64,000 nt of DNA from Bacillus zhangzhouensis. GTDB lineage: Bacteria > Bacillota > Bacilli > Bacillales > Bacillaceae. The position numbers and the translations under genes are program-made. Positions within the stretch are counted from its first letter, which is position 1; each line of letters begins with the position of its first letter. The DNA is taken from contig CP099514.1 in the NCBI GenBank assembly GCA_025809375.1, forward strand, positions 1,674,001 to 1,738,000, written 5' to 3'. Positions 56,509 to 60,507 of this stretch are shown here, one piece after another. The notes beneath the pieces were generated by a model. That model worked only from the letters and a program-made list of their open reading frames with translations, searched no databases and was not told the origin of the DNA.

Positions 56509-57018
56509 TTAATTTAACAAATACTGATTGAGCGCTTTCTCTTCTGTTTGAATTCTCACGGCCATCATCCATCCATTTAAACATGTGAACAAAATGGCGG
56601 TAAAATAGGCATTAAATAAAAGCGGGATCAGCATAAGCTCAATCGCCACCACTGCATAGTTAGGATGTTTTAACCAGCGATAAGGTCCTTTTTTCACCAT
56701 CATCGCATTTGGTACAACTAAAATCTTTGTATTCCAATACGTCCCAAGAGAACATAATGCCCAGTATCGAATAACCTGTGTGGCCAGCAGAAAAACGAGC
56801 AGCACAAGAAAATAGCGAGACGGCGGCTTGTTTAACCCCCATACCTCAATCATGAGTGAGAGAAAAAATCCCGCATGCATAGCGACCATATAAGGATAAT
56901 GACCAGCCCCAAATTCAATGGCACCGATCGCTTTTACTTTCTTTTCATTTCTTTTGGCCACAAGCATTTCAATAAGCCGCTGGCAAACGAAGAAACCAAT
57001 GACGAGCCAAATGATCAT
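56509..57018 (-). CDS. bpsB: BpsB, isoprenylcysteine methyltransferase-like alkylpyrone O-methyltransferase
   Basis: Start at ATG 57018 after GGGAGGAGG (169 residues). Membrane protein with five helices and the ICMT-type C-terminal SAM region (GPYRWLKHPNYAVVAIEL). In B. subtilis BpsB methylates the alkylpyrones made by BpsA. Its ATG overlaps the bpsA stop (ATGA). Confidence 0.87.
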   Translation of the reverse strand: MIIWLVIGFFVCQRLIEMLVAKRNEKKVKAIGAIEFGAGHYPYMVAMHAGFFLSLMIEVWGLNKPPSRYFLVLLVFLLATQVIRYWALCSLGTYWNTKILVVPNAMMVKKGPYRWLKHPNYAVVAIELMLIPLLFNAYFTAILFTCLNGWMMAVRIQTEEKALNQYLLN

Positions 57019-58115
57019 GACAAGACCTCCTCCCATTTCATGAGCAGCAGCTCTGAGGAAAAGCCCGGACCAAGCGCTCCGCAAAGACCCATATCTCCAG
57101 CTTCAGCGGACTGATGTTCAAGATAATGCTTGATGACATACAAAACTGTGGCAGAGGACATATTCCCGTGTTGTTTAAGGACTTCTTTTGATGAAAAAAG
57201 CTGATCCTCTTGTAAGGATAGACTTTCAATATAGGCATCAATCACTTTTTTTCCTCCAGGATGGGCAAGAAAAACCGATAAGTCTTCTGCCGAATACCCT
57301 TGCTGCTTTAAAAAATGATCGACCTGCTCTTTTAACCAGCCTGAAATAATGGAAGGAATGTCACGGGAGAAAATAACCCGAAATCCGTCACTTGTAAATT
57401 CCCAGCCCATCACATCCTCAGACTCTTTCATTGTGACGGATTGTGTACCAATCACTTTAGGGACTGTTTTGAGATGGGTATATTCAGATGCACCTTTTTC
57501 TCCCGTTAACAGTACCGCTGCTGTCCCGTCTCCGAACAAAGATGTACCAATTAAATTGCTTTTTGATTGATCTTGCGGCTGAAAGGTTAAACTGCACAGT
57601 TCACAGGCGACAACCAGCACCTTTCTTTCTGGAAATGCCCTTATGTATTCGTAAGCCCGGGACAACCCTGCCGCTCCGCCTCCGCACCCTAATCCCCAGA
57701 TCGGCACTCGTTTCGTATAAGGCGAAAAAGGAAGAACGTTCATCAGTTTTGCATCAAGGCTTGGTGTCGAAAGTCCGGTGCTTGAAATAAAAAACAATGC
57801 ATCGATCTCTTCAAACGGAATCGGCTTTTTCAGGAACGCCCTCTCATGAAGACAATGGATGACCGCTTCTTTTGTATGAGCCAATGCTTTTTCCAAATAG
57901 AGATTATTTTTCTCCTCAAAAGAGTGGTGTGTCTGATACCATTCAATTGGCTGCACAAACTGTCTGCTCTCGATTTCCCCGTTTTGAAAAGCTCTCAGCA
58001 GCCGGTCGATATCTTTAAACGATCGTTGAAATTGGGATCTAGCAAAATCAGCCGCCTTTTTCTGATCCACATAATGTTTTGGCAGACTCGTTCCAACAGA
58101 AAGGATGTACGCCAT
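57015..58115 (-). CDS. bpsA: BpsA, type III polyketide synthase
   Basis: Start at ATG 58115, nine bases after AGAGGTG (366 residues). Chalcone synthase fold with catalytic Cys in GLGCGGGAAGLS, His in LAHPGGKKVID and Asn in HGNMSSATV. Makes triketide/tetraketide alkylpyrones from long-chain acyl-CoA and malonyl-CoA. First gene of bpsA-bpsB. Confidence 0.94.
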   Translation of the reverse strand: MAYILSVGTSLPKHYVDQKKAADFARSQFQRSFKDIDRLLRAFQNGEIESRQFVQPIEWYQTHHSFEEKNNLYLEKALAHTKEAVIHCLHERAFLKKPIPFEEIDALFFISSTGLSTPSLDAKLMNVLPFSPYTKRVPIWGLGCGGGAAGLSRAYEYIRAFPERKVLVVACELCSLTFQPQDQSKSNLIGTSLFGDGTAAVLLTGEKGASEYTHLKTVPKVIGTQSVTMKESEDVMGWEFTSDGFRVIFSRDIPSIISGWLKEQVDHFLKQQGYSAEDLSVFLAHPGGKKVIDAYIESLSLQEDQLFSSKEVLKQHGNMSSATVLYVIKHYLEHQSAEAGDMGLCGALGPGFSSELLLMKWEEVLS

Positions 58116-58223
58116 CGGCTTCTTCACCTCTTTTTTCGATTAATATTCCCTATCGAAAAAAGGATATACATGCCAAAACGTTACAATTCAGTCAAAATAT
58201 TTTCCTTCGTCTAACTTTTTGTC

Positions 58224-58252
58224 TTGACGTCAATTGATAAATATTGGATAAT
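58224..58252 (+). promoter_or_regulatory. Orphan sigma-A promoter of a candidate small RNA
   Basis: TTGACG (58224-58229), 17 bases, GATAAT (58247-58252), on the strand opposite both neighbouring genes. Confidence 0.65.
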
Positions 58253-58258
58253 ATAGGT

Positions 58259-58320
58259 GAAACATGATGTAGTTTTCCTCCTTCACAGGTTCGTTCTAAG
58301 CCAAGCGAACCTGCTTTTTT
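58259..58320 (+). ncRNA. Candidate ~62-nt intergenic small RNA
   Basis: Transcription from the orphan promoter would start near 58259. A perfect stem CAGGTTCG (58286-58293)/CGAACCTG (58306-58313) followed by CTTTTTTT ends it near 58320. The minus strand has no T-tract after this hairpin, so it does not serve bpsA or pbuX. No ORF with a ribosome site fits. The unpaired 5' part contains TTTTCCTCCTTCA (58273-58285), complementary to a Shine-Dalgarno sequence. Confidence 0.6.
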
Positions 58321-58325
58321 TATGC

Positions 58326-58353
58326 AAAAAAAACACCTCTTAATGAGAGGTGT

Positions 58354-58354
<1 letters not shown>
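58326..58354 (-). terminator. Intrinsic terminator of xpt-pbuX
   Basis: AACACCTCT/GAGAGGTGTT hairpin, then eight T on the minus strand; reaches into the pbuX stop. Confidence 0.85.
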
Positions 58355-60284
<1,930 letters not shown>

Positions 60285-60295
60285 TCAATTTTGCA

Positions 60296-60333
60296 TAAAA
60301 AAAGCATTGCTGTCCATGAGGAGCAAGCAATGC
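60296..60333 (-). terminator. Riboswitch expression-platform terminator of xpt
   Basis: GCATTGCT/AGCAATGC stem followed by seven T on the minus strand. Its TTGCTCCTCAT loop-side strand can alternatively pair with ATGAGTGAGCAA at the 3' side of the aptamer P1 (60379-60390), forming the antiterminator. Confidence 0.85.
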
Positions 60334-60383
60334 GAAAAGATCAACGGATCTTCAGCTCAAACAAGAGCTGTTTCATTTTGCTC

Positions 60384-60450
60384 ACTCATAGTCGGACCGT
60401 ATCGGCGTCCGGTAGAAACTTGCGTGCCATCATCACGCGATTATATGAGT
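60384..60450 (-). promoter_or_regulatory. Guanine riboswitch aptamer
   Basis: P1 arms ACTCATA/TATGAGT enclose the conserved purine-riboswitch core (TAATCGCGTG, then GCACGCAAGTTTCTACCGG, then GGTCCGACTATGAG). The specificity base before TAT is C (GACTAT), which selects guanine rather than adenine. Confidence 0.95.
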
Positions 60451-60464
60451 GTTATAGTGTTCAA

Positions 60465-60493
60465 ATTATAACAAGATTTCAGACGCTTGGAAA
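60465..60493 (-). promoter_or_regulatory. xpt promoter
   Basis: Extended -10 TGTTATAAT (TATAAT at 60465-60470) with a weak TTTCCA -35 17 bases upstream. Start about seven bases before the aptamer. Confidence 0.6.
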
Positions 60494-60507
60494 GCACTTT
60501 TCTAGGA

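Follow-up and report, generated by a model that had tools for sequence, protein, structure and literature searches.

Locus and its components

The window, i.e., the whole stretch of 64,000 nucleotides that was analysed, carries bpsA (57015-58127) and pbuX (58354-59673) on the minus strand, and between them a plus-strand unit that consists of a promoter, a small RNA and a terminator. There is no adjoining plus-strand gene that the promoter or the terminator could serve, as the initial annotation of this DNA had stated. The features of the unit are the following:

58196..58217, minus strand: degenerate MntR-operator-like box AAGTTAGACGAAGGAAAATATT (matrix score 13.4 bits)
58224..58252, plus strand: sigma-A-type promoter TTGACG-17-GATAAT (TTGACG 58224-58229, GATAAT 58247-58252; scan and alignment)
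58256..58321, plus strand: ncr982 small RNA (its start deduced from the -10 element together with the Rfam model)
58273..58283, plus strand: C-rich anti-Shine-Dalgarno stretch TTTTCCTCCTT, unpaired and presumed to be the pairing region (sequence, fold and alignment)
58286..58321, plus strand: intrinsic terminator (a stem at 58286-58313 followed by C and seven T)

The arms of the terminator stem are CAGGTTCG (58286-58293) and CGAACCTG (58306-58313), and the scan gives 10 pairs with G-T allowed. The annotated terminator with a perfect 8-bp stem and seven T was thus found, with the corrections that the stem begins 33 rather than 34 nucleotides after the end of the -10 element and that a C precedes the seven T. 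The predicted RNA is ~62-66 nucleotides long, with an inferred start at 58256-58259. Folding prediction leaves the C-rich stretch single-stranded apart from the initial T residues, with the stability residing in the terminator stem. The analysis supports the proposed small RNA that is made from a promoter of its own, has an unpaired anti-Shine-Dalgarno 5' part and ends at an intrinsic terminator. The fold z-score of the segment 58258-58320 is -2.5 (5 of 200 shuffles were as stable or better).

A consensus scan of positions 57000-60500 gave 10 promoter-like sites versus 6.6 (sd 2.6) expected, and 7 terminator-like sites versus 3.1 (sd 1.8) expected; taken alone, the consensus patterns are near chance level and are weak evidence for a unit. 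The unit is lifted above chance level by its Rfam match (E 1.3e-9 in the window), together with the conservation of TTGA, GATAAT, the TTCC core within the C-rich stretch and the terminator stem in the 28 aligned loci.

The -35 element sits within the palindrome TTGACGTCAA (58224-58233), possibly a second regulator site; the pattern TTGA(C/T)NNCAA over the -35 element recurs in most relatives, with the exception of L028. On the minus strand, a terminator-like site with a 10-pair stem (58331-58355) directly follows pbuX, so that bpsA probably has its own promoter. Elsewhere in the window, there are matches to the cspA thermoregulator (RF01766, 48144-48563, plus strand, 86 bits, gathering score 78) and to the Purine riboswitch (RF00167, 60369-60468, minus strand, 68 bits); the latter is ordinary and lies upstream of an xpt-like gene and pbuX on the minus strand.

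Identity and conservation of the small RNA

In a whole-window Rfam scan, RF02454 ("Bacillus sRNA ncr982") matches 58256-58329 at full length (model positions 1-79 of 79) with 73.4 bits, compared to a gathering score of 50. By its sequence, the locus is a real small-RNA gene and an ordinary member of the catalogued Bacillus family ncr982. The window genome has one recognisable copy; the other two matches (E 0.92 and 4.8; 22.8 and 19.5 bits) are at noise level. The RF02454 match in genome G004, at 1917502-1917581, agrees with the published B. subtilis coordinates of ncr982, and on this ground G004 is taken as B. subtilis 168; ncr982 was described as an 81-nt peak at 1917500-1917580, between fosB and lexA (PMC3574147, Table 1). 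In the part of that article available to us, ncr982 has an enrichment of 47.7 in a B. subtilis Hfq pull-down, fourth of 22 putative sRNAs, the sample being stationary cells in glucose minimal medium, and it is credited to an earlier start-site mapping study (reference 33 therein). The literature that we searched, which largely excludes subscription papers, yielded for ncr982 just the name and the Hfq association, and no link between ncr982 and MntR. The B. subtilis RNA has the same promoter, C-rich stretch and terminator as the window copy, and their covariance match is full-length; the window copy differs in its home, which is bpsA-pbuX and not fosB-lexA, and in its degenerate upstream box.

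RF02454 matches 28 of 61 relatives, 27 of them above the cut-off; all 28 belong to the window's genus, represented by 37 genomes (the window genome included), and there were no matches in the 24 genomes from other families. A new model, built from the 28 RF02454 loci, which match it by construction, finds ncr982 in 40 of 44 genus genomes, and the description of the unit as an orphan had to be abandoned. Among 150 genomes sampled from the order, this model matches four, all of the same genus as the window.

The plus-strand promoter is present as annotated, and TTGA, GATAAT and TTCC persist in all 28 aligned loci. The conservation of promoter and hairpin in close relatives, the lack of which the initial annotation had named as one refutation, is observed. 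In the suggested covariation analysis, double changes with pairing kept occur at 2 of the 9 pairs of the terminator stem (22 of the 28 sequences used). In the copies of L026 and L027, a short deletion removes the AUGAUG stretch; the C-rich stretch and the upstream box are retained.

Two chromosomal homes

The 40 ncr982 loci are divided between two homes, 23 adjoining lexA and 17 adjoining bpsA, the latter being the window's type (16 and 12 among the first 28 loci; 7 and 5 among the 12 further loci). The chromosomal place is not included in the definition of RF02454, and the promoter accompanies the RNA in both homes. Within the fetched flanks, pbuX is found in 7 of 12 bpsA-type loci, and in one of them (L016) it is displaced. 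It was also observed that pbuX no longer follows the sRNA in some bpsA-type relatives; the sequence at L017:1600-3075 resembles transposase remnants by eye.

In B. subtilis, the one lexA-type genome checked, the bpsA-pbuX gap is shorter than 80 bp and does not contain ncr982. In the window genome, the 700 nucleotides downstream of lexA contain no ncr982; what is seen there is a different frame and, judged by eye, a terminator-like repeat. Since each home is empty in the one checked genome of the other type, the unit would have moved, or would have been duplicated and differentially lost. We favour lexA as the older home, because it is there that all of the most divergent members (L028, L215-L219) are found.

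The upstream box and its likeness to manganese-gene sites

In lexA-type loci, the conserved block starts at a palindrome similar to GTTTCCTTAAGGAAAC, whose centre lies 16 bp ahead of the -35 element, and the mean information across the edge of this box rises from 0.37 to 1.52 bits per position (19 distinct sequences). The edge analysis caught 36 of the 40 loci, missing L028 and L215-L217; among the 17 bpsA-type sequences, similarity is high over the whole length, so that no edge stands out. In the bpsA-type loci, the box is at the same place in a degenerate form. The MntR-type box in the relatives is the strongest clue to the role of ncr982, and it lies outside the segment that the initial annotation covered.

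The palindrome resembles TTTGCCTTAAGGAAAC, which is located between the promoter and the start of mntH in B. subtilis. In the window's genome, an exact copy of the 16-nt palindrome is found just once, ~107 nucleotides before the start of a gene for an MntB-like ATPase. The genes that we take to be mntH and mntAB, and their presumed operators, were named by homology. The sites before these genes are taken as MntR operators, on the basis of the genes themselves and of PMC11275975, the available part of which assigns to mntH one MntR site of high affinity and reports promoter overlap for the operators of mntA and mntH. A different MntR motif (TTTRG/TTTRR repeats), said not to match earlier reports, is proposed in the available part of PMC10448178.

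The ncr982 box was found within two mismatches of the palindrome in all four lexA-type genomes scanned (G004, taken as B. subtilis, G032, G011 and G036), and the window genome's ncr982 box is not among the sites at this distance. The counts of sites within two mismatches show no excess over the reversed-pattern control in the five genomes except G004 (3 versus 2). A third near-operator palindrome in B. subtilis (L089, G004:C1:3558835) lies between a LacI-type regulator gene and another gene, with no obvious manganese gene.

We scored the box using a matrix in which 13 distinct sites of mntH and 14 of mntAB are combined, with ncr982 sites excluded. These sites were chosen by the presence of GGAAAC, so that the GGAAAC core is invariant. 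The mntH sites came from 28 of 29 loci (L120 is truncated), with an additional GGAAAC in L136 disregarded, and the mntAB sites from 23 of 25 loci (L102 and L103 have none near the gene); extra GGAAAC matches elsewhere in these loci were excluded. The best match of the matrix is at the box in all 28 ncr982 upstream regions, starting at -57 to -61 from the model's first base, or at -52 in L026 and L027, whose RNA has the deletion.

With the combined matrix, the lexA-type boxes score 13.4-30.2 bits (n = 16) and the bpsA-type boxes 6.7-13.4 (n = 12), that of the window having 13.4; for all 40 loci, the ranges are 13.4-30.3 (n = 23) and 6.7-13.4 (n = 17). Among the 12 later loci within these 40, five of lexA type have 18.2-30.3 bits at the same place, four of them in genomes without contribution to the matrix, and the seven others have 6.7-20.3. 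Out of 10,000 random 120-nt windows, 2 reach 13.4 bits and 20 reach 6.7 bits. The background sample comprised both strands of 400 kb from G004 and of 400 kb from G000; in it, 2 and 1 positions, respectively, score at least the 13.4 bits of the window's box; the maxima are 19.1 (G004) and 14.9 (G000), and one G004 position exceeds B. subtilis's own ncr982 box (18.3). When the matrix is restricted to mntAB sites, lexA-type boxes score 17.2-30.5 bits, and no background position is as good. The mntH-only matrix gives 6.0-23.6 bits for lexA-type and 4.4-9.2 bits for bpsA-type boxes, several boxes of presumed B. subtilis type being poor, and for the weakest boxes up to 30 background positions per sample are as good; the window box has 9.2 bits, with 3 and 5 background positions as good. 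The MntR-activated promoters of mneP and mneS are missed by the matrix (at most 4.2 bits).

Proposed regulation and alternative explanations

From these sequence comparisons, we consider it moderately probable that ncr982 is a trans-acting C-rich antisense sRNA, the family being controlled by MntR at least in lexA-type species, with a box that has decayed in the window's lineage. We give comparable credence to the statement that ncr982 is a manganese-responsive sRNA under direct MntR control in Bacillus, a manganese counterpart of Fur-FsrA, with a second site and decaying control in the window's lineage. Its own promoter would make the RNA 58256-58321, and its own terminator would end it; in lexA-type relatives, the manganese-sensing MntR would bind the box 16 bp upstream of the -35 element and thereby make sRNA synthesis depend on the manganese supply. 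In the lineage of the window, the putative box, the promoter and the RNA sit between bpsA and pbuX, and the box appears decayed, so that manganese control there would be weak or lost. The MntR link is better supported in the relatives than in the window.

As for direction, our judgement leans slightly toward activation of ncr982 by MntR rather than repression. The location of the box upstream of the -35 element suits an activator, and the single strong box of lexA-type ncr982 resembles the repressed mntH/mntA class. In the available part of PMC11275975, known MntR-activated promoters have several weak sites, one of them over the -35 element, and mneP has a ladder of MntR sites with 19-bp spacing. 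Repression, if true, would make ncr982 an RsaC- or FsrA-like manganese-sparing RNA.

It is possible, with clearly lower probability, that ncr982 acts in trans without any link to MntR, and that the palindrome either serves a different regulator whose half-site is similar or is a UP-like element rich in A+T. The ncr982 box does not lie over the -35 element or the start, unlike those of mntH and mntA, and it is poor in all 17 bpsA-type loci; the conflicting motif in the available part of PMC10448178 also speaks for this explanation. It is opposed by the specific match of the box to mntH/mntAB sites of the same genomes, including loci outside the matrix, and by the single exact copy of the palindrome in the window's genome, which lies a short distance upstream of the MntB-like gene. 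The position of the unit between two minus-strand genes would also fit an action in cis on these neighbours, as antisense to, or interference with, pbuX-bpsA transcription. The existence of two homes led us to downgrade this to very improbable, as the same RNA adjoins lexA, and is convergent with it, in 23 of 40 loci. In addition, pbuX is followed by a terminator-like site of its own on the minus strand (58331-58355). Least probable of all is a small peptide encoded from AUGAUG, for which GGUG and AUG near the 5' end might be cited. The frame is M-M-stop in the window, runs through the terminator in B. subtilis and is unrelated in L009 and L215, and L026 and L027 do not have the AUGAUG stretch; with frames that are M-M-stop or unrelated between loci, the peptide-coding reading was rejected.

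Probable mode of action and candidate targets

Whether or not MntR is involved, ncr982 would most likely act in trans, its single-stranded C-rich 5' half pairing with ribosome-binding sites of target mRNAs and blocking translation. The reverse complement of this half reads as a ribosome site followed by a start codon; therefore, a translation block is the likely mode. Hfq possibly assists, its association with ncr982 being published for B. subtilis only.

The target prediction with the C-rich pairing region that the initial annotation had suggested did not single out targets. When we searched with the reverse complement of the pairing region and accepted at most 3 mismatches, we detected 5 sites in the window genome versus 15 for the reversed-pattern control, and 4 versus 5 in B. 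subtilis, the self-match included in both genomes; there is no excess in either. Three of the four non-self sites in the window genome are start regions of real-looking genes, gapA and two genes that we take to be mtnD-like and ung, as any Shine-Dalgarno complement would give.

We also ranked duplexes in a sample comprising ~14% of the window's genome (20 stretches and the window) and 9.5% of B. subtilis; this ranking is rough, with heuristic start codons and energies without an accessibility term, and 3 of the 15 best rows for the window genome are one repeated frame, probably ribosomal DNA. The best candidate in the window genome is gapA, whose start AAAAGGAGGAAAACATCATG (L034/L048) is strongly complementary to ncr982: the duplex has -28.1 kcal/mol, and 3 of 351 sampled start regions are as good or better. 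The B. subtilis gapA duplex, -19.3 kcal/mol, is ordinary (99 of 320 as good or better). The mntH duplex ranks 336 of 351 in the window genome and 182 of 320 in B. subtilis, and that of mntB 324 of 351; the B. subtilis sodA, qoxA, mneP, mneS and zur duplexes have energies of -14.3 to -25.9. Neither the pattern search nor the sampled duplex ranking revealed a target conserved between the window genome and B. subtilis.

Comparison with known small RNAs

FsrA and RoxS/RsaE both have Rfam models, and FsrA has a C-rich motif; RsaC derives from the mntABC 3' end, and its length likewise sets it apart. In a gathering search of the window and an E-value search of 58000-58500, the FsrA and RoxS/RsaE families were unmatched, and only ncr982 was above its gathering score at the locus. 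The initial annotation had described a layout like that of trans-acting FsrA or RoxS: the resemblance to C-rich sRNAs is there, and the conserved target that such a role would imply was not found in the two genomes searched. The likeness to RoxS/RsaE is in the C-rich motif, which is named for RsaE in the available part of PMC3574147; they belong to another family, without an Rfam match at the locus. RsaC is described in the available part of PMC12421985 as a manganese-responsive sRNA of Staphylococcus aureus that acts in manganese starvation. If the MntR link holds, ncr982 would share with it the tie to manganese supply; it differs in that the locus has no Rfam match except ncr982.

In the articles consulted, the B. 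subtilis MntR regulon comprises genes for manganese import (mntH, mntABCD) and efflux (mneP, mneS), and the available part of PMC10448178 extends it by further transporter genes. What the computation adds to the already known ncr982 is the two alternative homes and the lexA-type box matching mntH/mntAB sites, both at the level of sequence. The two homes offer a natural contrast between a good and a decayed control site for one and the same RNA, and the MntR link, if true, would be the first functional lead for the family. The closest parallel would be FsrA, a Fur-controlled B. subtilis sRNA that represses translation (PMC9993123, available part). Both are short sRNAs with their own promoter and terminator, and both would be controlled by a metal sensor if the MntR link holds; ncr982 is a separate family, and its metal would be manganese, whereas that of FsrA is iron. 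An MntR-controlled ncr982 would then form a post-transcriptional arm of the MntR regulon, as FsrA does for iron.
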